Shown here: positions 23,301 to 37,500 of the stretch, piece by piece
How positions within the stretch are numbered: position 1 is the stretch's first letter
How the letters are laid out: each line of letters opens with the position of its first letter
Assembly (NCBI GenBank): GCA_022072455.1
Contig: JAJVHY010000028.1
Coordinates: forward strand, 1-64,000
DNA length: 64,000 nucleotides
Direction: 5' to 3'
Source of the DNA: Verrucomicrobiia bacterium
GTDB taxonomy: Bacteria > Verrucomicrobiota > Verrucomicrobiia > Palsa-1439
The notes under the pieces: generated by a model
Told to the model about the DNA's origin: nothing
Database searches by the model: none
What the model saw: the letters and a program-made list of their open reading frames with translations, nothing else
Translations under genes and position numbers: made by a program

Positions 23301-24706
23301 GGTTTGTCCGTCCGAAACGGCGAAGCCGGCAAGCCGTCCTGATTGTAGAGCGTCAGCTTCGGAACAACCGCCCACCCGTAGCGCACGGCGATCGGCTCTG
23401 GCACGAGCGGGCTGGAGACGATGACTTGCGTGCCGGTAATTTTGGCGGTCGCATTCGTGAAAACCTTGTCCGCGCCGGCAATGGTAAAGCCGGTAAGTTC
23501 TTGCCCCTTCACCGTCAAGCCCGCGTCGGTGTTTTGAAAGTTAAGCACCACCCGGTCGCCCTCGACACGCATCGAATCGAAGACCGGGCCGGCGTATTCG
23601 ACCGTCTCGCCGTACGCGACCGCGCGAGCTGCGAGCGCGAGACGTTGCCCGACCGGTTCCTTCTCCGGGAAGTGCACTTCACGCGCGCCTTCGAGGCAGT
23701 CGGCGCTGACCACCAACGCGGTGTTGGTGGCGCGCCGCCACACGTCCACTTGCGCTTCGCGGATTTCCGGCGTCACGAACGGGCCGAGTTGGCCGACGAG
23801 AAACGGAAAATCGCCTTGCCCCCAGTCCGCGCGCCAGCCGCGCAGCATTTCGAGAAACCACCCGGCGTACGCCTGTGCAACCGTCGAGTTTGATTCACCC
23901 TGAAACCAGATCACGCCGCGAATCGCGTAGGGCTGCAATGGCGCAATCATGCCGTTGTAAACTTTACCGATGGTGCGCTCGACGCGTTTCGGTGGGGGAT
24001 TCGTGCCGGGAGATTGCTGATACTTCGTCAACGCCGCTTGATACCGGGCTTCCGCAACTTTGCCGGCATCCACCCAACCTTGATAGGCCGGGTTGGCTTC
24101 GATACCGCGCCAACTCATCCAGAATTGCACACCCGTGCCACCGACCGACGAATGAATCAGCCCGACCGGCACCTGGCGCGCCCGGCGCAAATCGCGTCCG
24201 AAAAAATAGCCGATGGCCGAAAAGTCCGCCACGTTGGTGGGCGTGGAACTTTTCCATTGCACCGCCACGTCGCGCAATGGTTCGGGGCCGCCGGCATTGG
24301 GAATCGTACATAAACGCAATTCGGAATCGGTGGCCGCAGCGATGGCGGCGGGGCCGGTGGTCGCGCGTTTGAGCGGAAAATGCATGTTGGATTGACCGCT
24401 GCACACCCAGACTTCACCGATGAGAAGGTCGGTGATCTCGGCGTCGTTGATGTGCATCGTGAATGGTCCGCCGGGTTTGAGCGGCTTCAGTTTCACGAGC
24501 CACCGGCCCTCCTGCGCGACGGTGGATACTTCTTGGCCTTGAAATTTCACGGTGACCTTGTCGCCGGTGTTCGCCGTGCCCCAGACCGGGACCTCGACGC
24601 CTTGTTGCAACACTCCGCCGTTGGAAAAGAGTCCGTGTGGTTTGACAGCGGCGTGACTGCTTGCCGCCAGAAAAATGAGCCAAACCAGACCGAGGGTCAC
24701 CTTCAT
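23297..24706 (-). CDS. sialate O-acetylesterase family protein, copy 1
   Basis: 469 residues from the ATG at 24706, where MKVTLGLVWLIFLAASSHA is a clear signal peptide. The SASA elements are VWVCSGQSNMHFPLKR, RGVIWFQGESNSTVAQAY and EGAREVHFPEKEPVGQRLA. It heads the run of five genes down to 16605 that are joined by ATGA overlaps, so all five exported proteins should be made from one transcript. A short AT-rich gap (24707-24770) separates it from the creatininase gene and may hold a promoter. Physiological substrate: an O-acetylated glycan, not necessarily sialic acid. Confidence 0.88.
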   Translation of the reverse strand: MKVTLGLVWLIFLAASSHAAVKPHGLFSNGGVLQQGVEVPVWGTANTGDKVTVKFQGQEVSTVAQEGRWLVKLKPLKPGGPFTMHINDAEITDLLIGEVWVCSGQSNMHFPLKRATTGPAAIAAATDSELRLCTIPNAGGPEPLRDVAVQWKSSTPTNVADFSAIGYFFGRDLRRARQVPVGLIHSSVGGTGVQFWMSWRGIEANPAYQGWVDAGKVAEARYQAALTKYQQSPGTNPPPKRVERTIGKVYNGMIAPLQPYAIRGVIWFQGESNSTVAQAYAGWFLEMLRGWRADWGQGDFPFLVGQLGPFVTPEIREAQVDVWRRATNTALVVSADCLEGAREVHFPEKEPVGQRLALAARAVAYGETVEYAGPVFDSMRVEGDRVVLNFQNTDAGLTVKGQELTGFTIAGADKVFTNATAKITGTQVIVSSPLVPEPIAVRYGWAVVPKLTLYNQDGLPASPFRTDKP

Positions 24707-24750
24707 CAAAGTATAATATGAATCCAAGCAACCGAATCTTATCACGGGGT

Positions 24751-24773
24751 TAAGACAAATCGGAAGTGTCTTA
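24751..24773. repeat. inverted repeat between creatininase and esterase genes
   Basis: TAAGACA (24751-24757) and TGTCTTA (24767-24773) pair perfectly around a nine-base loop. The repeat contains the creatininase-family stop codon. There is no U-run after the hairpin on either strand, so an operator or mRNA processing element is as likely as a terminator. Confidence 0.45.
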
Positions 24774-25661
24774 TGACTCGAGCGTTTCCCAGTCAGGAAT
24801 CTGCCCGTACGTCCAAACGCGTTTGAGATCGGCGTACGTGGGCGTCCAATACTTACGGGTTAGCCGGTCGAAGTTCTGCCAGATTGCCTCCGTTTGGTTA
24901 AAGTCCGGGGCCTTCCAGTCAGTGCGCGGCCGATACTCCGCCAGCAACCGTTGCGCCGCACCCGCCAGATTGCGGATTTGCGACGCGACAATTTTGTCGC
25001 CGATTTCCTTCGACGGAATCGGTCCCTTGGTAAAGTTCACACCAGCTGCGAAGCCCGTTCCCAATTCAGCGCTGACAGTCTGCCGGGACAAATCCACCAT
25101 CTCCGGGTGCAACGCCATTAGTTGCGAAGTCTCACACACCCCGGCATGATCGCCGCGATGGGGCAGGTTGGCATCAATGCATTCGCAATCCGCAATCGCA
25201 TATAAGCGCAGCGGTGAGCCGGTCTGCCGCAGGTAGTATTCGCAAATCTTCCGCAACACCAGTTCCACCCCGCCATAATGGCCCGTCACCAAAACTCCGC
25301 CGCGAAATCCCCGGGCGTCCATGGCGCGGATCTGATAGAAAACCGACCGATAAAACAAATCCGCCGGCAATGAACTACACAACGATTGCCGCACCCCGAC
25401 ATCTGCCAGCCAGCCATTCCCCTTGCCGTCATCATGAAACTCCGGCACGTCCTGAATGTGCCAGGCGAAGGGCGGGGCCACGATACCGCCGGCCGCTTTC
25501 GCCACTGCCTCAACGAGTCCCTGCGCCTTGAGCCAGTCCAACCCGACGGCGTTATACCCGCCATGCGGTTCGGCCAAACCGTACGCCATATAGCAGACAG
25601 GAAACCGGTCGCGCGCCTCGACAAATTCATGCGGCAACATTTCCTCCCAACGGACCTTCAT
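24771..25661 (-). CDS. creatininase-family metal-dependent amidohydrolase
   Basis: The start is the ATG at 25661, overlapping the upstream stop by ATGA (296 residues). The longer open frame runs through the neighbour and is discarded. Near the N-terminus YGLAEPHGGYNAVGLDWL corresponds to the family's E-x-HG-x-H-x-P-x-G-x-D metal motif, with E31, H33 and D42 retained but the second His replaced. GGVLVTGHYGGVELVL matches the family's NGHGGN region. The family includes creatininase, lactonase-like and formamide hydrolases acting on small molecules. No signal peptide. In this setting it may open a cyclic amide or lactone of a sugar derivative, but that is inference. Confidence 0.75.
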   Translation of the reverse strand: MKVRWEEMLPHEFVEARDRFPVCYMAYGLAEPHGGYNAVGLDWLKAQGLVEAVAKAAGGIVAPPFAWHIQDVPEFHDDGKGNGWLADVGVRQSLCSSLPADLFYRSVFYQIRAMDARGFRGGVLVTGHYGGVELVLRKICEYYLRQTGSPLRLYAIADCECIDANLPHRGDHAGVCETSQLMALHPEMVDLSRQTVSAELGTGFAAGVNFTKGPIPSKEIGDKIVASQIRNLAGAAQRLLAEYRPRTDWKAPDFNQTEAIWQNFDRLTRKYWTPTYADLKRVWTYGQIPDWETLES

Positions 25662-26884
25662 CGATTTTTCCAGCGTGGCAATTTTGAGATGTTGATGTGC
25701 CGCGCGGCGTCGAGTGGCGCGGCCTCTGGTCCAACGGCGGGAAATTTTCTCGGCTTCTGCAAACGCACGGAGCGTTTCTTGCCGGCAATCACCGCACAGG
25801 TGTTTTCGGCAAAATAGATTTCGGAACAGCCGGGGCCGACCAGCAAGGCTTTGCCGGTGCGCGGGCGGATTTCGTTGCCAATGATGCAAAGTTGGTGAAC
25901 GTCGCGGTCGAGAACGATCTCAGCCGCACCGCCGTTGTTGGCGAGTTCATTGCCTTCGATCCAGAGCCGGTCGCCTGTTTCCAGAAACGGTTCGCGGAGG
26001 TGAATGCCGGGACCGCCGTTGTCGGTGATGTGATTGTGACGCAACATGTGGTTGGTATCGCGTTCGCCGACGGAAATGCCGGCGCGACCATTGTGGGCGA
26101 TGAAGTTGTGTTCGCAATTGGAGTACTTGGTGCGCAGGCAATAGAATATTCCACAGCCGGAATTGTGTTCGCTGCAGTTGTCGGTCATCACATAGCGCAC
26201 TGTCCCACTGCCGGGGTGGAGGCCGGAGCCCTTGTTATGATGGACGTGGCAATGCCGGACGAAAATATCCGTGCCGCGTTGGAAGCTGATCGCATCGCCG
26301 TTGAAATTTGTCACCTCGACGCCTTCGATGACCACGCGATGCGCGCCCAAGAGGTTGATTCCACCGCCCCGGCAACCGTTTATGCCGACTTTTTCCTGTG
26401 GATTGCCATCGAGCGTGAGTTGTCGGATCGAGGTATCGGTCACATTATGACCACTAATCAGCGAAAACGTGCTCCGCACCAACGCGCCAGCCGGCGGTGA
26501 GTAGTCATGCGCAAACGGCCGGTCGATGAAGAATGTATCGCCCTCCCGGCCGACAATGGTTGCGACGGTTTCGTAAAAACCGAACGCGTTCTTGTCGCCG
26601 ATGGTGACGCCCATGCCGACCTTGAATTTGCCGGGTTCTTTGACCTGAAATTCGAACTGCCCGTAGCCCACCCACGGCACCAGTGCACTGCTGACACTCG
26701 GCACCTTTCGCAAAATCGTCCCGGGTTCACCGACGATATGGACGCCGGTTCGCAAATGCAGCGCGTCATCCATCCGGTAAGTGCCGGCGGGAATCTCGAC
26801 GGTCCCGCCGCCAGCACGGGCAGCTTTATCCACGGCGGCTTGGAGGGTAACATTGGTGCGACCAGAGGCGCGAATTTGTTTCAT
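25658..26884 (-). CDS. right-handed parallel beta-helix protein (pectate-lyase-like)
   Basis: 408 residues from the ATG at 26884 (MKQIRASGRTNVTLQAAVD); an ATG 12 codons upstream is an alternative. The opening LQAAVDKAARAGGGTVEIPAG followed by TYRMDDALHLRTGVHIVGEPG is the typical entry of Pectate_lyase_3-type helices. Repeated rungs follow (HRVVIEGVEVTNFNGDAIS, IFVRHCHVHHNKGSGLHPGS, SNCEHNFIAHNGRAGISVGE, NHMLRHNHITDNGGPGIHL, RLWIEGNELANNGGAAEIV). Such folds belong to glycan lyases, hydrolases, epimerases or binding proteins. No signal peptide is seen, which again suggests a cytoplasmic enzyme. It is coupled to the creatininase-like gene. Confidence 0.78.
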   Translation of the reverse strand: MKQIRASGRTNVTLQAAVDKAARAGGGTVEIPAGTYRMDDALHLRTGVHIVGEPGTILRKVPSVSSALVPWVGYGQFEFQVKEPGKFKVGMGVTIGDKNAFGFYETVATIVGREGDTFFIDRPFAHDYSPPAGALVRSTFSLISGHNVTDTSIRQLTLDGNPQEKVGINGCRGGGINLLGAHRVVIEGVEVTNFNGDAISFQRGTDIFVRHCHVHHNKGSGLHPGSGTVRYVMTDNCSEHNSGCGIFYCLRTKYSNCEHNFIAHNGRAGISVGERDTNHMLRHNHITDNGGPGIHLREPFLETGDRLWIEGNELANNGGAAEIVLDRDVHQLCIIGNEIRPRTGKALLVGPGCSEIYFAENTCAVIAGKKRSVRLQKPRKFPAVGPEAAPLDAARHINISKLPRWKNR

Positions 26885-26914
26885 GGCGCGTACTCTCGTA
26901 AGTTGTCGCCCGCG

Positions 26915-26936
26915 AGTCAATCCTTCACGATTGACT
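26915..26936. promoter_or_regulatory. perfect inverted repeat in divergent region before thrS
   Basis: AGTCAATC (26915-26922) and GATTGACT (26929-26936) are exact reverse complements around a six-base loop. They lie midway between the divergent beta-helix gene and thrS. The right arm ends in TTGACT, a -35-like box for thrS, but no good -10 follows. It may be an operator for either direction. Confidence 0.45.
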
Positions 26937-26967
26937 TTGGATTCCTTGCGCCGTAACCATCTTTTCG

Positions 26968-28944
26968 ATGGAACGCAAATCTTTAGATCAACGCGCGCAG
27001 ATGACCGACCTCGAACGGCTCCGACATTCGGCCGCCCACGTGATGGCCACCGCCATTTTGCGGCTCTGGCCCGATGCGCAGTTCGCCGCCGGACCGCCGG
27101 TCGATGACGGATTTTACTACGATGTCGATCTGAAACACCGGATCACGCCGGAGGATTTTCCGGCGATTGAAGCGGAGATGAAAAAGGAAACGAAGGCGAA
27201 CAATATCTTCGAGAAGATCGTCGTCACGCGCGAGCAGGCGATCAAGGACGCGGAGAGCGGCCGGCTCGGCGGGTTGAGCGAGCGGCCCGGTAATCCGAGC
27301 AAGTTCAAGCTCGGTAATCTCGAAAAGATTCCCGCGGGCGAAGAGATTACTTATTTCAAGAACGGCGATTTCATTGACCTCTGTGCCGGGCCGCATGTGA
27401 TGCGGACCGGCAACGTCGGCGCGTTCAAGCTCACGAACGTCGCCAGCGCGTATTATTTGGGCGACGAGAAAAACCCGCAGCTCCAGCGCATTTACGGGAC
27501 GGCGTTCAAGAACAAGACCCAGATGGATGAGTACTTCGCCATGCTGGAAGAGGCGAAAAAGCGCGACCACCGGAAGCTCGGCGCGGAGATGGGCTTGTAC
27601 GTGATGGACACCGAATACGTCGGCCCCGGCCTGCCGCTCTGGTTGCCCAAAGGCACGGTGATCGTCGAGGAACTGGAAAAGCTCGCGAAAGAAACCGAAT
27701 TCGCCGCCGGCTACGTCCGCGTGAAGACGCCGCACTTGGCGAAGGAGAAGATGTACAAAACCTCCGGCCACTTGCCGTACTACGCCGAAAGCATGTTCCC
27801 GCCGATGGAGTTGATCGAAGGTGACGAAGAGAAACGCCAGCGAGAACTTGACGATGAATATGCCCGATTAGGAAAAGAGCATGGCGAGATTCTGGGACTC
27901 GGTCAGAAAGAACGCGCAGCGCGACTGTCTGAGATCGCCGATCGGCTCAAAGCCATTGGCGAAGAAATGGGAAGACTCGGCGAGCGCTATTACCTCAAAG
28001 CGATGAACTGTCCGCATCATCATCGGATTTTTGCGGCCGAGCCGCGTTCTTACAGGGATTTGCCGTTGCGGTTGGCGGAGTATGGGTGCTGTTACCGGTA
28101 CGAGCAGTCGGGCGAACTCTTCGGCTTGATGCGCGTGCGTTCGCTCAACATGAACGACGCGCACATCTATTGCACGCCCGAGCAGTTTGCCGCCGAGTTC
28201 AACGCGGTCAACGAGATGTACCTGAAGTATTTCAAGATTTTCGGTTTCGAGAAATATCAGATGCGTTTCAGCACCAGCGCGCCGGAAGGTTTAGGCAAGA
28301 AGTACGTGGACGAGCCGGCGTTGTGGAAGCAGACCGAGGACATGGTGCGCGACGTTCTGGTCTCCAGCGGCATCAACTACGTCGAGGTCGCCAACGAAGC
28401 GGCGTTTTACGGCCCGAAGATCGACGTGCAAGTCTGGAGCGCTATCGGCCGCGAGTTCACCATCGCGACGAACCAAGTGGATTTCGCCGTGCCGAAACGG
28501 TTCGGCCTCGTGTACAAGGACCGCGACAACACCGAGAAGACGCCGCTGTGCATTCACCGCGCGCCACTCGGCACGCACGAACGGTTCATCGGTTTCCTGA
28601 TCGAGCATTACGCCGGTAACTTCCCGCTCTGGCTCGCGCCGGAGCAGGTGCGGGTGCTGACGTTGGGCGAGGAAGAACCGCTGTTGAATTACGCGAAGGA
28701 TGTCGTGAACCAACTCCGCGCCCAGCAAGTCCGGGCGGAAGGGGATTACGGCAACGATCCGATCAAAGCGAAGATCGCCAACGCGGAGAAAGCCAAAGTC
28801 CACACGATGCTCGTCATCGGCGGCCGCGACATGGAAGCCGGAAACGTCTCGGTTCGCCTCCATGGCAAGGGCAACGTCGGGGCGAAACCGAAGGCGGAAA
28901 TGATTGCGGACATCTTGGCGGCAATTCGGGAGCGCAGAGCCTAA
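26968..28944 (+). CDS. thrS: threonyl-tRNA synthetase lacking the TGS domain
   Basis: 658 residues; charges tRNA-Thr with threonine. The usual N-terminal TGS domain is absent and the protein opens almost at once with the editing domain (LRHSAAHVM with H20 and H24, later DLCAGPHVMRTG). The class II core follows: LPKGTVIVEELEKLA (motif 1 area), then zinc ligand C348 in MNCPHHHR, RYEQSGELFGLMRVRSLNMND, IHRAPLGTHERFIGFLIEHY and an anticodon-binding domain at the C-terminus. Between FPPMELIEGDEE and YYLKAMNCPHH lies a charged helical insertion of roughly 55 residues (283-340), where the family has only a few residues. It begins the thrS-infC-rpmI-rplT cluster. Confidence 0.96.
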   Translation: MERKSLDQRAQMTDLERLRHSAAHVMATAILRLWPDAQFAAGPPVDDGFYYDVDLKHRITPEDFPAIEAEMKKETKANNIFEKIVVTREQAIKDAESGRLGGLSERPGNPSKFKLGNLEKIPAGEEITYFKNGDFIDLCAGPHVMRTGNVGAFKLTNVASAYYLGDEKNPQLQRIYGTAFKNKTQMDEYFAMLEEAKKRDHRKLGAEMGLYVMDTEYVGPGLPLWLPKGTVIVEELEKLAKETEFAAGYVRVKTPHLAKEKMYKTSGHLPYYAESMFPPMELIEGDEEKRQRELDDEYARLGKEHGEILGLGQKERAARLSEIADRLKAIGEEMGRLGERYYLKAMNCPHHHRIFAAEPRSYRDLPLRLAEYGCCYRYEQSGELFGLMRVRSLNMNDAHIYCTPEQFAAEFNAVNEMYLKYFKIFGFEKYQMRFSTSAPEGLGKKYVDEPALWKQTEDMVRDVLVSSGINYVEVANEAAFYGPKIDVQVWSAIGREFTIATNQVDFAVPKRFGLVYKDRDNTEKTPLCIHRAPLGTHERFIGFLIEHYAGNFPLWLAPEQVRVLTLGEEEPLLNYAKDVVNQLRAQQVRAEGDYGNDPIKAKIANAEKAKVHTMLVIGGRDMEAGNVSVRLHGKGNVGAKPKAEMIADILAAIRERRA

Positions 28945-29068
28945 AAAGGTTGTTGCAAACCTGCGCGGAAAGCCTTAAAGGACAGCGCCTAGATGGTAGT
29001 CACCACCACAAATCAAGTCGAAGTCAACGCCCTGCGCCGGCCATTCTGATGTCGCGCGCTGTGTAACC

Positions 29069-29084
29069 GGAGGTCTTGCCTATT
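29069..29084 (+). promoter_or_regulatory. Shine-Dalgarno and AUU start of infC
   Basis: GGAGG at 29069-29073 is followed eight bases later by ATT (29082-29084) in the infC frame. The in-frame TTG at 29076 is only two bases from the GGAGG and is poorly placed. This matches the AUU start by which E. coli infC is autoregulated by IF3. Confidence 0.65.
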
Positions 29085-29672
29085 CAACAGTTCATTCGCG
29101 TCAACCACAAGATTCGCGCCCGCGAAGTGCGGGTGATCGATTCCGATGGAAAACAACTCGGCGTCATGCCGACCAGTCAGGCGCTCGGCGCCGCCCAGCA
29201 AGTGGGCTTGGATTTGGTGGAGATCGCTCCGAACGCCGCGCCGCCGGTCTGTAAGATCGTTGAGTACGGCAAATATAAGTACGAGCAGGAAAAGAAGGAA
29301 CGCGAATCACGCAAACATCACCACGGCGGCAAGCTCAAGGAAATCAAGCTGCGCCTGAACATTGACGACCACGACTACCAGACCAAACTCAATCACATGA
29401 AAGAGTTCCTGGCAGATGCGATGAAAGTGAAGGTCTCGCTGTTCTTCCGCGGTCGCGAGAATGCGCATCCGGAGTTGGGTCAACAGTTGTTCCAGCGGGT
29501 GATCAAAGACATGGAAGGTTACGGACACGCCGAGGTGCCGCCACGGCAGATGGGCAAAAGCATCAACATGATGCTCTCCCCCGAACGCGGCGCCGCCAAG
29601 AAGTACGAGCAGGAATTTAAGCGGGACGACGACGACGCGACCGAGCCGGCCGAAGCCAGCGCAGAGAAGTAA
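29082..29672 (+). CDS. infC: translation initiation factor IF-3
   Basis: 196 residues when started at the ATT at 29082 (TTG at 29076 would add two residues). IF3 binds the 30S subunit and proofreads the start codon and initiator tRNA. The N-domain contains VNHKIRAREVRVIDSDGKQL and LDLVEIAPNAAPPVCKIVEY. The linker is the lysine-rich YKYEQEKKERESRKHHHGGK, and the C-domain has VKVSLFFRGRENAHPELGQQ. A charged tail (DDDDATEPAEASAEK) follows. It lies between thrS and rpmI in the order conserved in many bacteria. An AUU start would let IF3 repress its own synthesis. Confidence 0.96.
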   Translation: MQQFIRVNHKIRAREVRVIDSDGKQLGVMPTSQALGAAQQVGLDLVEIAPNAAPPVCKIVEYGKYKYEQEKKERESRKHHHGGKLKEIKLRLNIDDHDYQTKLNHMKEFLADAMKVKVSLFFRGRENAHPELGQQLFQRVIKDMEGYGHAEVPPRQMGKSINMMLSPERGAAKKYEQEFKRDDDDATEPAEASAEK

Positions 29673-29696
29673 ACAATTTCAGGAAGGAAAAAACAA

Positions 29697-29912
29697 ATGC
29701 CACGTTGGAAGTCAGCTAAAACAAAGAAGGCCGCCGCCAAGCGGTTCAAAATCACCGCCACCGGCAAAGTCATGCGCTTCGGCGCCGGCAAACGCCATTT
29801 GAACGGCCACAAATCATCCAAACACAAACGCCGCCTCGGCCAAACCAGAGCCGTTCACGAAACGATGGCGCATCACGTCACCGACGTCATGCCCTTCAGC
29901 CATCGCGGTTAA
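29697..29912 (+). CDS. rpmI: 50S ribosomal protein L35
   Basis: 71 residues of a basic ribosomal protein of the large subunit, with family features KTKKAAAKRFKITATGKVMR and HKSSKHKRRLGQ. An AGGAAGG ribosome binding site precedes the ATG. It is 24 bases from infC and 24 from rplT, as expected for co-transcription. Slightly longer than typical (about 64-66) because of a C-terminal extension, TDVMPFSHRG. Confidence 0.96.
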   Translation: MPRWKSAKTKKAAAKRFKITATGKVMRFGAGKRHLNGHKSSKHKRRLGQTRAVHETMAHHVTDVMPFSHRG

Positions 29913-29936
29913 CCCATTTTTTAGGAGACTCACACC

Positions 29937-30281
29937 ATGCCTCGCGCCACAAACGCCCCCAGCAGTATCGCCCGTCGCAAACGAATGCTCCTCGCCGCGA
30001 AAGGCTATCGCGGCTGGCGCAGCACCAAATTTCGGTACGCCAAAAATGCCGTCTGGCACGGCCTGACCTACAGCTTTGCGCATCGCAAAGACAAGAAGGC
30101 CGATTACCGCGCGTTGTGGACCCAGCGCATCAACGCCGCCTGCCGCGCCCAAGGCACAACCTACAGCCGGTTCATCGAAGCGTTGAAGAAAGCGAAGATC
30201 GATCTCGACCGCAAGATTCTCGCCGAATTGGCGACGAACGACGCCAAAGCGTTCAGCGCAGTTTTGGCGGCGACGAAGTAG
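29937..30281 (+). CDS. rplT: 50S ribosomal protein L20
   Basis: 114 residues; an early-assembling 23S rRNA-binding protein. Family features include [40 protein letters not shown] and [25 protein letters not shown] lies nine bases before the ATG. In many bacteria L20 represses rpmI-rplT translation; no leader structure was tested here. It is the last gene of the cluster and is followed by a short hairpin. Confidence 0.97.
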
Positions 30282-30284
30282 CCT

Positions 30285-30304
30285 CACCCGTTAGGGTGCG
30301 TTTT
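30285..30304 (+). terminator. weak intrinsic terminator after rplT
   Basis: CACCC (30285-30289), a GTTA loop and GGGTG (30294-30298) form a five-base GC-rich stem, followed after CG by TTTT (30301-30304). The stem is short, so this is a modest candidate. Confidence 0.45.
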
Positions 30305-30306
30305 CA

Positions 30307-30320
30307 CAGGCTAAAGCCTG
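30307..30320. repeat. short REP-like palindrome in convergent gap
   Basis: CAGGCT-AA-AGCCTG, followed by CGGCTAC, is a perfect palindrome between the convergent rplT and racemase-like genes. Similar AAGCCTGCGGCTAC strings are commonly seen as intergenic repeats in related genomes (from memory, not checked). Only one copy was noticed in this window. Confidence 0.4.
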
Positions 30321-30323
30321 CGG

Positions 30324-31451
30324 CTACAACTCGTCCCACAGATTCGCAGGGCCGAGCACCTCAATGGTGTCTCGGCCCTCAATTTCTTGGCGCACCGCCT
30401 CCGAGACAATCAGTGTTTCGAGGTGGAGCGTGTTCTTGATCCGTGCGATTCGCCGGCCACACACCGCCTCATCATCCGCATCCACTACCGGCGGAATCAC
30501 GCCGCGCAACGTGAACCCGCTTGTTTCCACATTCGTCCGCGTCACGCTCCAATCCGTGCGCGCGACCAATCGCCGTGTCGTCACATCCGCCAACCCAATC
30601 CCATACGCGCTGTCCCCGCGCACATCGCGCACAAATATCTTTTCGATCCGCGGCCGGACCGGCTCCGCCTCGCCGGCAATCCGCAGCCGCCCGATCACAT
30701 TCGTATCCATCCCCGTCCCGCTGATCTCTTTCCCAATCTCATCCACGATCAACAGATCCAATTCTTCCACCGGCAAGCTCGGCATATTCGCCCGCGCCAA
30801 TTCCAACAACGCCGGTTCGTCTTCCGGTATCCGCCGCGTGACCTTGATCGCCAACGTCTCGTCGTAAGCATTCTCGACCAGGGCCACGCCGAACAAAATC
30901 TTCCCGGTCGCCAACACTTGCCGGGCCACTTCCGGCATCTCATCGCGCAATCCCGGGATTCCCAACCGGTGAATTGCCGCCGCGCCGGTTTGCTTCCCGA
31001 GGCCGACCGCGATCATCTTCATCAACCCACTCTCATACCGGCCATGGAAGGACGTGTGCGGCTTGACGCGATTGATCACGATCACCCCGTCGGCCTCCGC
31101 CGCCGCCTTGTCCATGAACACCCCCGGCGCCAGTTCCACCACTTCCATCGAGGAAACGATTGGCGCGCCGGTAATCCCGAAACTTTCGAGGAGTTTCCGC
31201 TGTCCCTCCGCCGTCGCCCCGGCATGACTGCCCATGGCCGGCACGATGAACGGCTCGGCACCTTGCGCCCGTACCCAATCCGCCACCCCGAGCACAATCG
31301 CCGGTAAATTCGCGATCCCGCGACTGCCAACGGCCAGCGCCACGCGCGCGCCCGGTTCGATTGCCTGCGTTTTCAGGCCCACGGCCAGTGTCCCGGCAAT
31401 ATCCGCCAACTGCCGGGTATCGAACCGCTGCCGAATCCGAAAATAGTTCAT
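30324..31451 (-). CDS. lactate racemase N-terminal (LarA/DUF2088)-like protein
   Basis: 375 residues from the ATG at 31451, which overlaps the PHP phosphatase stop by ATGA. Characteristic segments are ALAVGSRGIANLPAIVLGVA, FIVPAMGSHAGATAEGQRKL, VIVINRVKPHTSFHGRYESG and MIAVGLGKQTGAAAIHRLG. This corresponds to the LarA N-terminal fold and its close DUF2088 relatives. LarA uses a nickel-pincer cofactor to racemise or epimerise 2-hydroxyacids. No larB, larC or larE biosynthesis gene is near, and the C-terminal half diverges from LarA. The activity is therefore uncertain; it may be a related 2-hydroxyacid or sugar-acid isomerase. Confidence 0.75.
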   Translation of the reverse strand: MNYFRIRQRFDTRQLADIAGTLAVGLKTQAIEPGARVALAVGSRGIANLPAIVLGVADWVRAQGAEPFIVPAMGSHAGATAEGQRKLLESFGITGAPIVSSMEVVELAPGVFMDKAAAEADGVIVINRVKPHTSFHGRYESGLMKMIAVGLGKQTGAAAIHRLGIPGLRDEMPEVARQVLATGKILFGVALVENAYDETLAIKVTRRIPEDEPALLELARANMPSLPVEELDLLIVDEIGKEISGTGMDTNVIGRLRIAGEAEPVRPRIEKIFVRDVRGDSAYGIGLADVTTRRLVARTDWSVTRTNVETSGFTLRGVIPPVVDADDEAVCGRRIARIKNTLHLETLIVSEAVRQEIEGRDTIEVLGPANLWDEL

Positions 31452-32212
31452 CCGAGTGGAACGAGTTCGCGTTTCCGCTGCGTGAATCGGCAAATCTGGT
31501 TGTACCCGCACCGGCGCGCGAGGGCGACTGCCTTGTCAAAATCCGCGCCGGTATCTTGCGGAATATGCGCATCGCTGCCGAGGGTGATCGGGATCTCGAA
31601 TTGTCGAGCCAGCGTCAGAAACTCTTCGGCTGGATAGATCTCCCGGCACGGCTTGCGCAATCCGGCCGTGCTGACTTCAATCGCGCACGTCACATCTTTG
31701 AGATACGGCCGGTAATCGAAGTTCTTCGCGCGAAAGCCAAATTTCTTCGGCAAGTCCGGGTGGGCGAGCGAATCAAACACGCCGGCGCGCGCCGCTTGGC
31801 CCCACAGGTCAAAGTATTGCCGCCAACGTTGCTCGACGTCGGTATTCGCCCAGTCTTCCGTACAGCGGTCTACAGGGAAGTCGCCGATGAAATGGACGCT
31901 ACCGAGAAAATAATCCCACGGATACATTCCGGCGAGTTCGCGCACCCACGGCTCGCAGCCCGGCACGAAATCCACTTCGAGGCCGAGTTTGACGTTGAGT
32001 TGCGGGAACTGCCGGCGCGCCTCACTCACCATTGCGACGTACGCCGGCAAGTCGGACTGCTTCATGTTGCACTCGGCGAGAAACGTCGGGGTGGGGCAGT
32101 GGTCGGAGATGCCGATCTCATCCAGCCCGCGTTCCATGGCCACGCGCGCGTACTCGACCGGCTCGCCGACGCCGTCGGTCAGCCGGGTGTGCATGTGATA
32201 ATCAATCAGCAT
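31448..32212 (-). CDS. PHP-family phosphatase, histidinol-phosphatase (HisJ/HisK)-like
   Basis: 254 residues with a PHP metal site: DYHMHTRLTDG at the start, ISDHCPTPTF, LEVDFVPG, LGSVHFIGDFPVD, SLAHPDLPKKFG and LGSDAHIPQDTG. This succession of His and Asp ligands for a trinuclear metal centre is the pattern of HisK/HisJ histidinol-phosphatases, which make histidinol in histidine biosynthesis. No other his biosynthetic gene is near (hisS at 52 kb is a synthetase). The short PHP form could have another small phosphoester substrate. Its stop overlaps the racemase-like start. Confidence 0.78.
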   Translation of the reverse strand: MLIDYHMHTRLTDGVGEPVEYARVAMERGLDEIGISDHCPTPTFLAECNMKQSDLPAYVAMVSEARRQFPQLNVKLGLEVDFVPGCEPWVRELAGMYPWDYFLGSVHFIGDFPVDRCTEDWANTDVEQRWRQYFDLWGQAARAGVFDSLAHPDLPKKFGFRAKNFDYRPYLKDVTCAIEVSTAGLRKPCREIYPAEEFLTLARQFEIPITLGSDAHIPQDTGADFDKAVALARRCGYNQICRFTQRKRELVPLG

Positions 32213-32238
32213 GCCGGCAGTGTAGGGAGCAGGGCGTT

Positions 32239-32259
32239 GCAGGACAAGCCTTGTCCTGC
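32239..32259. repeat. long palindrome in divergent promoter region
   Basis: GCAGGACAAG and CTTGTCCTGC are exact ten-base arms around one base. They lie between the divergent PHP phosphatase and the small His-rich gene, with AGTTTTCACTAGATTG following. Its position before two starts argues against a terminator. It may be an operator or a REP-type repeat. Confidence 0.5.
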
Positions 32260-32286
32260 AGGGAAGTTTTCACTAGATTGAGCGCG

Positions 32287-32430
32287 ATGAAGAAAGCGCT
32301 GCTGCCGTTGTTGCTGATCGTGGCCGGGATGGTGTTGCTGGCCGGCGTGGCGTATTGGGGCGAAAGCCGCGGGTGGGATCATTTCTTTTGCGGCGACGAA
32401 GGACACGACCATCACGGACATTCCCATTGA
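32287..32430 (+). CDS. small single-pass membrane protein with His-rich tail
   Basis: 47 residues: MKKALLPLLLIVAGMVLLAG and following residues form one membrane helix. A short soluble tail holds one Cys and ends GHDHHGHSH. The tail could bind a divalent or transition metal. The stop overlaps the TTG start of rpe (TTGA), so translation is probably coupled, which supports this being a real gene despite its size. No family recognised. Function unknown; a metal sensor or chaperone is speculation. Confidence 0.6.
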   Translation: MKKALLPLLLIVAGMVLLAGVAYWGESRGWDHFFCGDEGHDHHGHSH

Positions 32431-33080
32431 TCATCGCCCCCTCCATTTTAGCTGGTGACTTCGGTAACTTCGCCGGCGAGGCGCGGCGCGTGGAGTTGGC
32501 TGGGGGCGATTGGTTGCATTGTGACGTGATGGATGGGCATTTTGTGCCGAACCTCACATTTGGGCCGGACGTGATCGCGGCGTTGCGGCAGGCAACGCGG
32601 GTGCCATTGGATGTGCACCTCATGATTGAGCGCCCGGAACGATTTGTGGAGCGCTTCATTGAAGCGGGTGCCGATCACATCACGGTCCATGTCGAAGCCG
32701 AAGCCAAACACGACGTGGCGTGGACGCTGCAACTGATCCGGTCGCGCGGAAAAAAGGCCGGGCTATCACTCAACCCGCCCACACCGGTCGAGAAAGTCTT
32801 CCCTTTCCTTGACCAGGTGGATTTGCTGCTGGTGATGACCGTGAATCCCGGCTTTGGCGGGCAAGCCTTCATACCGGAATGTTTGGATAAGATCCGCGAA
32901 ATCCGCCGCCGGGCCCCCAAACTTGCCATCAACGTGGACGGCGGCATCAACCCAACGACGGCTCGGCAATGCGTCGCCGCCGGCGCCACGATCCTCGTCG
33001 CCGGCAACTCGCTGTTCCGGCACAAAACTCTCGGCTTGCCGGAGGCAATCAAGGAATTGCGAACTCATGTCGAAAACTAA
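32427..33080 (+). CDS. rpe: ribulose-phosphate 3-epimerase
   Basis: 217 residues if started at the TTG at 32427, which gives the normal N-terminus (M)IIAPSILAGDF and overlaps the preceding stop. It interconverts ribulose 5-phosphate and xylulose 5-phosphate in the pentose phosphate pathway. Metal and catalytic motifs are CDVMDGHFVPNLTFG, PLDVHLMI, MTVNPGFGGQ and INVDGGINPTT. The normal size for the family supports this start over the longer frame. The 3' end overlaps the next gene by 14 bases. Confidence 0.95.
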   Translation: MIIAPSILAGDFGNFAGEARRVELAGGDWLHCDVMDGHFVPNLTFGPDVIAALRQATRVPLDVHLMIERPERFVERFIEAGADHITVHVEAEAKHDVAWTLQLIRSRGKKAGLSLNPPTPVEKVFPFLDQVDLLLVMTVNPGFGGQAFIPECLDKIREIRRRAPKLAINVDGGINPTTARQCVAAGATILVAGNSLFRHKTLGLPEAIKELRTHVEN

Positions 33081-34449
33081 AATCAAATTCGGAACCGACG
33101 GCTGGCGCGGAATCATTGCGGACGATTTTACGTTCGAGAACGTTCGACGCGTCGCTCAGGCGACGGCGGATTACTGGAACGCACAGCCACTCCCGAAGAA
33201 AGCCATCGTTGGCTACGACAACCGGTTTTTCTCGGAAGTATATGCGAAGCTCGTTTGCGAAGTTCTGACCGGTAATGGGATTGAGGCGCTTTATCCACCC
33301 GAAGCCGTCCCGACGCCGGCCATCAGCTATGCCGTGCGCGACCAGCAACTGTGCGGGGCCGTCATGATTACGGCTAGTCACAATCCGCCGCAGTTTAATG
33401 GCTACAAGCTGAAGGCTGACTTTGCCGGCCCCGCGACGCCGGAAATCTGCGCGGCCATCGAAGCTCGCATTGATGGCTCGTCGGTGAAAACAGGAACTTC
33501 CATCAAGGAATACGATCCGCGACCGGCGCACGTGGCGGTGGTGAAGAAAATGGTGGACCTCAAAACGATCAAACGCGCGAAGTTGCGGATCGCGATCGAT
33601 TCGATGCATGGCTGTGGCGGGCGCGTGCTGGAAAAACTTGTCGGCGGGACGACGGTGCGGGCGACGCGGGATCCGTTGTTCGGCGGCGTGAACCCGGAGC
33701 CGATCGGGAAAAACCTCAAAGCCTTGAGCGCCGCAGTAAAGAAAATGCGCGCGCACGTTGGACTGGCGACCGATGGTGATGCGGACCGGTTGGGGATTGT
33801 GGACGAGAAAGGCCGGTACTTGTCGATTCAACTGGTGTTCGCGATGTTGCTGCTGCATCTCCTGCGGAATCGCAACGAGCGGGGTGGGGTGGTCGTGAAG
33901 TCCGGCAACTCCACAGTGCTGATTGACCGGATTTGTGCGGCGTATGGGTTGAAGTGTGTCGAGGTACCGGTCGGCTTCAAATGGATTTGCCAGCAGATGC
34001 GTGAACAGGACGTGTTGATTGGCGGCGAAGAGAGTGGAGGCATCGGTTTTCGTGGCCACATACCGGAGCGCGATGGGATGCTGGCGAATTTGATGTTGTT
34101 GGAACTGCTGGCTGCGACCGGTAAGTCGGTCACGAAGATTGCAGGTGAGATTCAGAAGGAATTCGGCGCGAGTGCGTATGACCGGATTGACATGCACTTT
34201 CCGTTGGAGCAGCGGCACGCGTTCATCGAACACTTGGCGAAGTCCCCGCCGGCAAAGTTGTTGAACTCGCCGCTGAAAGAAGTGAAGACGTATGACGGTG
34301 TGAAGTATATCGCAGCGGACGATTCGTGGTTAATGTTCCGCACATCAGGAACCGAGCCAATTATCCGTATTTACAGCGAGGCGGCGAGTGGGTTGAAGGT
34401 GAAGCAACTGCTCGCGCAAGGCCGACAGACAGCGTTGTCAATGAAGTAG
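33067..34449 (+). CDS. phosphoglucomutase/phosphomannomutase family protein
   Basis: 460 residues from the ATG at 33067, overlapping rpe by 14 bases. The four alpha-D-phosphohexomutase landmarks are present: the phosphoserine loop MITASHNPPQFNGYK, the metal loop DGDADRLG, the sugar-binding loop GGEESGGIGFRG, and the phosphate-binding RTSGTEPIIRIYSEA. The FGTDGWRG start is typical. It could act on glucose, mannose or glucosamine phosphates; sequence alone does not choose. Feeding glucose from the downstream giant glucosidase into glycolysis or cell-wall precursors is plausible. Confidence 0.92.
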   Translation: MSKTKIKFGTDGWRGIIADDFTFENVRRVAQATADYWNAQPLPKKAIVGYDNRFFSEVYAKLVCEVLTGNGIEALYPPEAVPTPAISYAVRDQQLCGAVMITASHNPPQFNGYKLKADFAGPATPEICAAIEARIDGSSVKTGTSIKEYDPRPAHVAVVKKMVDLKTIKRAKLRIAIDSMHGCGGRVLEKLVGGTTVRATRDPLFGGVNPEPIGKNLKALSAAVKKMRAHVGLATDGDADRLGIVDEKGRYLSIQLVFAMLLLHLLRNRNERGGVVVKSGNSTVLIDRICAAYGLKCVEVPVGFKWICQQMREQDVLIGGEESGGIGFRGHIPERDGMLANLMLLELLAATGKSVTKIAGEIQKEFGASAYDRIDMHFPLEQRHAFIEHLAKSPPAKLLNSPLKEVKTYDGVKYIAADDSWLMFRTSGTEPIIRIYSEAASGLKVKQLLAQGRQTALSMK

Positions 34450-34461
34450 TGAAGATAGTAG

Positions 34462-34500
34462 TTGACGAAACCAGGTAAAGCGGTTTACCTAATTGTGGAG
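34462..34500 (+). promoter_or_regulatory. LacI-type operator and promoter of the GH31-GH15 gene
   Basis: AGGTAAA (34473-34479), GCGG and TTTACCT (34484-34490) form a perfect seven-base-arm palindrome centred on CG, the layout of LacI/CcpA-family operators. A -35-like TTGACG (34462-34467) is 17 bases from a weak -10 TTACCT (34485-34490), so the operator lies over the promoter spacer. GGAG (34497-34500) serves as ribosome binding site. No LacI regulator is encoded next door. Confidence 0.6.
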
Positions 34501-34505
34501 TTGCC

Positions 34506-37500
34506 ATGATGCGATACCTCTTATCCCTACTTATCGTCCTTTCACTGAACTCAATCTCTAACGCCGCCGTGAGCACCGTTGGACCGGTGACCAACATCAC
34601 CATTACGGTGAGCGGAAACCTTACAAACGTGAACTTTTGGGTCAACAACGGCGCCAATAGTGGCGTCGCCCAGGTGACACCATTCGCGGCTGATGTAATC
34701 CGTGTCCGTTACTACTTCGCGGCGTTATGGTCCAAAGAAGAGCCGATGATCGCCAAGCAAACAAACCAATGGGCTACCGTCGCCGGCACGACTTACACCG
34801 ATCAAGGCAGTACGTATCTCATCGCCACACCGCAAGTTGACGTTGTGATCACCAAGAGTCCGAACTTCAAAATCGATTTTAAAGACAAGAGCGGCTACAC
34901 GCTGTTGCAGGACGACAAGATTCAGTTCGATCCAGACTACTTTTATACCGGCCAGAGCAGCTGGTCATCAGGCGGTTTCAAACTCAAGGCCACCAAAGTT
35001 ATGCCGGAGGGGCAGGCGTATTTCGGGGTCGGCGAAAACGGCGGCCCGATGAATCGGCGGGGGCGGGAAATGGAATGCTGGAACACTGGCACCTACAAAT
35101 GGGGCGAATTCCAAAACCCCACCTACCTGAACGTGCCGTTCTATTACGGTGTGCAACCCGCGGCGGGCAACGTCCCCGCTTTTGTTTATGGTGTGTTCTT
35201 CAATAATCCCTGCCGGCCACTCTTTTCGTTCGGAGCGAACAAGTCCGGCGCCAGTCGCGTCTCATTCGAGGCTGGTGACGGCCAGATGGATTACTTCTTT
35301 TTTGGCGGCGGAGCCAATCACACGATGGCCGGTGTCATTGACCGCTTTTCAGAACTGACCGGCCGTGCCACGTTCCTGCCAAAGTGGGCGTTTGGCCACC
35401 ACCTCAGCCGATTCAGCTATGACAGCCAGTCGTGGGTTGAATACATCGCCAACGAAGCCACCGTCCAAGACATCCCTTTGGATGCCGTCTATATGGACAT
35501 TGACTACATGCAGTATGGCTCGTTGGGCGACGGCAACATCCGCCAACTGACGGTTCGTCCCAGCACATTCTCCAACCCTGCCGGCATGATGAACTACTGC
35601 AACGCGCGTGGTGTCAAAGTGGTGCCGTTGATTGAGCCTTGGCTCCAACCCAATGACACCACCCTCTACAACGATGCCAACGCCAATTTCCATTTCATCA
35701 AGGACAATGGCAGCGCCACGGTCACGCGCAATATCTATGTCGGCCCCGTTTCTTGGTTTGATTACACCAGCACCAGCATGCGCACTTGGTGGCGCGACAA
35801 GATCGTCAACTGGTTCAACTCCTACAACTCCGGCAATCCCTCCTTCGCCGGCATCTGGAACGACCTGACCGAGCCGGAAGGCGGCGATGCCATTCCGTAC
35901 AACGGTTTGCTGTGGGCTGATGGCCGGTATGGCAACTCCACCACCGACAGCCGCCGGCATTGGTCGAACGAACGGAACTATTTCGGCCTCCGTTGCGCCT
36001 CGCAGAGCTATGAAACGATGCTGGCGAAGAATCCCAGTAAAAGGCCCTTTGTTCTCAGCCGCTCCGGCAACGCCGGCCTCCAACGGTATGCCGTCAGTTG
36101 GAGTGGTGACACCGGTGCCGATTGGTTCTACCAGCGGGCGACCATCCGGTTCGGCATGGGCGCGATGTTGGCCGGGGTGGGGTGGTACGGTAACGACGTC
36201 GGCGGATTCGTTGGCAATCCCGGCGATGAACTGCTCGTTCGCTCCTACGAGTTCAACATGTATACGCCGTTCTTCCGTAATCACGCGGACAAAGCTGCTG
36301 CCGACCGCGAGCCGTGGCGCTTTGGCGAGCCAACAAAAAGCCGGCTACGCAATCTCATCAAATACCGGTATCGATTGATGCCATATCTCTATTCACTCGC
36401 GTACAAATTCACCCAGACCGGCGAACCAATGAACGTCCCGCCGGTGTTTGATTATTATTCTGACGCCAACACCACCAATCTCAACGAGTACGAATTCATG
36501 ACGGGCGACTTCATTCTCGTCCCGCCAGTCTACCAGCAGGGCGCGACCACGCGGACCGTTTATCTGCCGTGGGCGAAAGATGTGGCTTGGTACTATTATC
36601 CAACCGGTGCGCGCTACAACGGCGGTCAACAGGTCACCGTCAATACACCGGTCGGCGGCACCAACATCTTCATCCGCTCCGGCGCGATTATTCCGATGGG
36701 GCAGACTGAGCAGTTCCTCGGGCAAACCAGCGTGGATTACCTCGATGTGCAATGCTGGCCGGAAGGCAACTCTACGTTCACCCTGTACGAGGATGCCGGC
36801 GATGGTTGGGATTACACGAACTCCACCGGCCGTTCCGAAATCACCTTCACCAGCTCCCGCGGTTCGACCAACTGGAACTTCACCGTGGGCTCCCGGCAGG
36901 GTGGCTACACCAACGCCATTGCGCGCAACTTCTACATCTACGCCAACAATCCGTCGCCCACGGTTTACGGCGTCAAGCTCAATGGCTCGGCGCTGCCGCA
37001 ACTGGCGAACTTCGGTGCAGGCCCACAGGGCTGGCTGATTACTGGCGGGAAACTTGGGATCAAAGTGCCGGACGACGGTTTGCAGAAAGTGCTCGAAGTG
37101 GATTGGGAAGAGTTCATCCCTGGCGATGCCGGCTCCGCCTTGGGCATCCCCGGCACATGGAGCGGCTGGGCTGACAGCACGCCACCGTGGGCGCTCCGCA
37201 AAGTTAATCCACCCGGCACACCAGCCGGTGTCAAGTGGTACACCAACACGATCCACGTCGCCGCGTCCGGCGGCAACATCACCGCCGGTACGTACCAATT
37301 CAAACTCCGCACTAACCAGGATTGGGCGAATAACTGGGGCGGCGGTGCGACCGTCAACATCAACGGCACCACCGCGCTTGGCTGGGGTGGCGCAGATGCC
37401 TCGATCACCCTGCAGAACGATTTCTACTACTCGTTCCGCGTCCTCGAACCGACGCTTAACTCCAGTGCGACCATCGCGGTCATGCGCACACCGTCGCGAC

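Follow-up and report, generated by a model that had tools for sequence, protein, structure and literature searches.

The gene for translation initiation factor IF3 (infC) in the 64,000-nucleotide stretch of Verrucomicrobiia DNA analysed here (the window) starts, on strong comparative support, at an AUU codon at position 29082 that is served by a GGAGG Shine-Dalgarno (SD) sequence. The complete explanation that we favour, in which this start and the placement of its SD are combined with feedback by IF3 on its own synthesis, a promoter dedicated to infC and possible modulation by short leader open reading frames (ORFs), is in our judgement very probably correct.

The infC start site

Read directly, the infC leader runs TAA (29064-29066) CC GGAGG (29069-29073) TC TTG (29076) CCT ATT (29082) CAA CAG TTC ATT CGC GTC AAC, with all features discussed here on the forward strand. 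The gene itself (29082-29672; 196 codons plus stop, with the start codon at 29082-29084) encodes IF3, as judged from its match to TIGR00168 (E=1.3e-58, single copy in the genome) and from PDB IF3 chains, which also match. An earlier sequence-only reading had placed GGAGG eight bases before an in-frame ATT at 29082; the coordinates agree, and the frame yields the full IF3. The same reading named TTG 29076 (29076-29078) as the only standard alternative, two bases from the SD, and this too is upheld, as the in-frame TAA bounds the stretch and TTG is the sole NTG between TAA and ATT, from which it is separated by CCT (29079-29081). The first NTG 3' of ATT is a GTG that lies 15 codons into the conserved N-domain. 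The 3' end of the 16S rRNA of the same genome, GGATCACCTCCTTT, carries CCTCC, the partner for the infC SD. The bare motif is not above chance, GGAGG-N5-9-ATT occurring 11 times in the window against 8.1 +/- 3.0 expected, and at infC it draws its weight from lying at the IF3 N-terminus and from being conserved, not from rarity. SD spacing elsewhere in the window ranges from 2 to 14 nt across 14 genes with reliable starts, too few to inform the comparison.

Conservation of the start codon within the family

The family sample comprised 11 genomes, of which nine have infC; the window's order and family coincide in these genomes. Comparison of the ATT and its SD spacing among relatives, which the sequence-only reading had proposed as a check, finds both conserved: the aligned start codon is ATT in eight genomes and ATC in one (L005, where the automatic start caller took another ATT and visual inspection of the alignment gave ATC), and an SD lies 6-9 nt 5' of it in all nine. 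Protein conservation begins at this codon. QQFVRVN is encoded after it in nearly invariant form, whereas the codons two before (TTG/CTG/ATG/TTG/GGA/GGA/TTC/GCA/GAG) and one before (CCT/CTC/CCT/CCC/GCA/GCA/GAT/GCA/ACA) are unrelated across the nine genomes, and such an abrupt edge of conservation is the mark expected of a start codon. In the five genomes L006-L010 no ATG, GTG, TTG or CTG occurs from the upstream stop to the body of IF3, leaving AUU as the sole plausible start there. The proposal that infC starts at AUU is thus well borne out by the family, in which the product is IF3, an AUH codon (AUU, AUC or AUA) stands at the N-terminus with normal SD spacing and is kept in 9/9 genomes, and there is no usable NUG.

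Gene neighbourhood, putative promoter and candidate leader ORFs

Directly upstream of infC, in the window as in most sampled relatives, lies thrS (threonyl-tRNA synthetase, 26968-28944; a 658-aa ORF named from sequence), whilst downstream are rpmI (ribosomal protein L35, 29697-29912), conserved at this position in relatives, and rplT (ribosomal protein L20, 29937-30281), both named by gene order and sequence. E. coli infC shares with the window this thrS-infC-rpmI-rplT order, the AUU start and the GGAGG SD at 8 nt, but differs in its thrS-infC gap, which is about 3 nt in E. coli and 137 nt in the window, where it holds a putative promoter and leader ORFs. The putative promoter, of sigma-70 type (28953-28981), consists of a -35 element TTGCAA (28953-28958), 17 nt, and a -10 element TAAAGG (28976-28981); since TTGCA[AT]-N17-TANW occurs between thrS and infC in 9/9 family genomes, against a chance expectation of about 0.9% for each region, it is probable that infC has a dedicated promoter in this gap. 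Within 24000-36000, neither an L20 leader nor any other Rfam family was matched at gathering threshold. A conserved GC-rich hairpin just 5' of the SD, striking in L004, L008, L010, L118 and L137 taken singly, was rejected as a general element, and mean pre-SD hairpin energy is hardly better than that of dinucleotide shuffles in family, class or phylum.

Two candidate leader ORFs follow the promoter. The first (28993-29049; 18 codons, MVVTTTNQVEVNALRRPF) ends in TGA (29047-29049), whereas the second and weaker candidate (29049-29066; five codons, MSRAV) overlaps it as TGATG and ends in the TAA at 29064-29066, which lies just before the SD and doubles as the in-frame stop upstream of infC. In 8/9 family genomes (the window, L003, L004 and L006-L010) the promoter-like element is followed by a short ORF of 6-28 codons, opening with ATG or GTG, whose stop (TAA, TGA or TAG) falls exactly 19 or 21 nt before the infC SD. 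Such spacing has a shuffle probability of 0.02-0.15 per genome, to be read in the knowledge that the genomes are related and that the criterion was set after looking, and is at most suggestive. The layout of the second ORF is found also in L003 (TAATG, 5 codons) and L005 (ATGA, 8 codons) and in no other family genome, and the two-step arrangement is present in the only other genome of the window's genus. The leader peptides are conserved in neither sequence nor length across the family, and a threonine attenuator based on the ACC ACC ACA codons of the first ORF was rejected, these codons not being common to relatives. A short upstream leader ORF may nonetheless, speculatively, modulate the supply of ribosomes to the AUU.

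infC starts across the class and phylum

Among 179 loci from the class and phylum, infC starts were assigned as ATT (63), ATC (25), ATA (21), TTG with a TTGA overlap (31), CTG (4), ATG (3) and other TTG/GTG (4), with 28 unassignable by the start rule, which, applied to E. coli K-12 infC as a positive control, returned ATT with SD GGAGG at a spacing of 8. AUH is the majority start in 33 of the 39 families sampled outside the class, and in Omnitrophota and other loci infC also starts mostly with AUH. Published starts are AUU in B. subtilis (PMC1805508), ATC in Streptomyces (PMC5472188) and AUA, mapped by retapamulin ribosome profiling, in S. aureus (PMC13009471); a non-NUG AUH start is hence common to these members of other phyla and to the window, although that of S. 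aureus was mapped experimentally and that of the window is comparative. AUU-started infC is a known and widespread bacterial arrangement, neither enterobacterial nor new, of which the window holds a well-supported new example. The sequence-only reading had described it as the classic enterobacterial arrangement: the type is indeed a known one, but it is not confined to enterobacteria, being seen in B. subtilis, Streptomyces, S. aureus and Verrucomicrobiota.

Several variants were noted in passing. Family f9 (L153-L155) has an infC without an NTG start, for which CTG is the likeliest start codon, with ATT farther inside, i.e. another case outside AUG, GUG and UUG. The infC start in family f4 (L092, L093, L096, L097, L099, L100, L103) is ATA, preceded by AGGAGGTG; a short ORF opening at an ATG ~30 nt upstream runs into the gene and terminates on the start codon itself, as ATAG, or else 14 nt into infC. 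In family f70 (L138, L211-L215) the stop codon of an upstream frame that is probably the 3' end of thrS overlaps the infC start as ATTAG, which suggests direct coupling of infC to thrS translation.

Proposed IF3 feedback and alternative explanations

In the mechanism that we propose, the GGAGG SD 8 nt upstream would position the ribosome for translation of infC from AUU 29082, IF3 would destabilise 30S complexes on this as on other non-NUG codons, and infC translation would consequently be lowered by plentiful IF3 and raised by a shortage of it, amounting to negative feedback on the IF3 level. Such feedback is expected because IF3 rejects AUU initiation complexes in the E. coli paradigm, from which we infer autoregulation of the window infC. 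Repression by IF3 of non-NUG starts, that of its own gene included, is described as established in E. coli (Butler et al. 1986, 1987; Sacerdot et al. 1996, as cited via PMC5472188), and a GTC start is repressed by IF3 in Streptomyces (PMC5472188). Compared with E. coli IF3, the window protein is changed at several C-domain arginines (R112N, R116E, R129F, R168K) and retains R99, K110, R131, R133 and R147 as well as the linker residues Y70, Y75 and K79. The residues compared are those that we take to be linked to codon discrimination in E. coli, and the changed arginines mean that discrimination equal to that of E. coli is not guaranteed.

Initiation at TTG 29076 would add two residues to IF3 (M-P-I-Q-Q...), the form that gene finders restricted to NTG codons would annotate, and would leave no codon-based feedback. 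The stretch holds no NTG besides this TTG, and in L005, L004 and L003 its position is taken by TTG, ATG and CTG, respectively; nevertheless its spacer is 2 nt here and that of its counterparts in these three relatives 0-1 nt, and spacers of 0-2 nt are too short for SD-guided initiation. As the position moreover lacks an NTG in the other five of the nine family genomes, and neither this codon nor the next is conserved, TTG is rejected as the start and we regard its use as highly improbable.

The remaining alternatives retain the AUU start. Were the main control exerted by the leader ORFs, ribosomes ending at 29049 or 29066 would re-initiate at the AUU, with re-initiation and the codon both subject to IF3. 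The recurrent stop spacing in 8/9 genomes and the conserved promoter in the thrS-infC gap are in keeping with this, as is the finding in E. coli of reduced re-initiation behind an upstream ORF when IF3 is overexpressed (PMC2268962), although that inhibition is weaker when an SD is present (PMC2268962) and the window infC has a good one. The variable leader peptides, the presence of the second ORF in only three genomes and the retention of AUH elsewhere in the phylum, where infC mostly lies directly after thrS with no leader ORF, make this explanation unlikely. It is also quite unlikely that AUU only holds expression at a constantly lowered level, with no feedback because IF3 here does not discriminate the codon: the altered C-domain residues would be compatible with that idea, but AUH is kept in most families of the phylum whilst ATT, ATC and ATA interchange, as fits selection for the class of codon that IF3 rejects, and AUH is retained across several phyla. 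Codon-based feedback from the AUU start is accordingly the reading that we prefer.

A related order with a TTG start and an overlapping leader ORF

A related order within the class has lost the AUH start: its infC begins with TTG, preceded by a weak GAGGG SD. The set comprises 43 loci from 32 families that passed a TTGAGY filter (including L091, L098, L101, L104, L200 and L264-L284); their IF3 is orthologous to that of the window, differing in the use of TTG and a TTGA overlap instead of AUH, and the loci form one clade in the IF3 tree (94/89 support, from few alignment columns). In 33/43 loci an ATG is located exactly 29 nt before the TTG, whereas other offsets average 0.9; 41/43 loci have some upstream ATG in frame. 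The resulting leader ORF has ~10 codons, typically MNKLQPxRVS*, and its TGA overlaps the infC start as TTGA. CAA occupies codon 5 in almost every case and is not replaced by its synonym, indicating that conservation may be of nucleotides and not of the peptide. Some genomes of this order carry a second IF3 gene (L285-L291, in G095, G563, G562, G577, G190, G572 and G157), the likely start of which is also TTGAG[CT].

Leaderless mRNAs are likewise repressed by IF3. A leaderless leader ORF was nevertheless rejected for this order, as no conserved sequence lies directly 5' of the ORF start; because a promoter-like TTGC element recurs, as judged by eye, about 80-110 nt upstream of the TTG, the ORF is probably not leaderless. 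A programmed frameshift from the leader ORF into IF3 was also rejected, since it would need the -1 phase and no slippery heptamer is evident on inspection. It is conceivable that the leader ORF provides a replacement for IF3 feedback, acting through re-initiation; the E. coli overexpression result noted above bears on this, whereas in vitro work points in the opposite direction to inhibition of re-initiation by IF3 (reviewed in PMC12548453). A literature search of incomplete coverage found no report of upstream ORFs of this kind on infC. Extended to the whole class, the proposal would be that IF3 synthesis is gated by the start codon together with short leader ORFs before infC, and that one large order has exchanged the AUH sensor completely for the TTG/TTGA leader ORF, with feedback via re-initiation instead of codon discrimination; we put this forward tentatively, as a generalisation that is more doubtful than probable.

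Implications

These observations extend a textbook autoregulatory arrangement to a little-studied phylum, in which it is the usual design of infC. Annotation programs that accept only NTG starts would place the beginning of IF3 wrongly in these genomes or shorten the protein, and infC misannotation of this kind has already been documented in Streptomyces (PMC5472188). Whilst the infC of the window is in itself of modest interest, the leader-ORF variants in the class merit further attention, and the order with a TTG start, which has lost AUH and carries a conserved overlapping leader ORF, offers a natural contrast in which to ask whether IF3 feedback can be rebuilt by other means.
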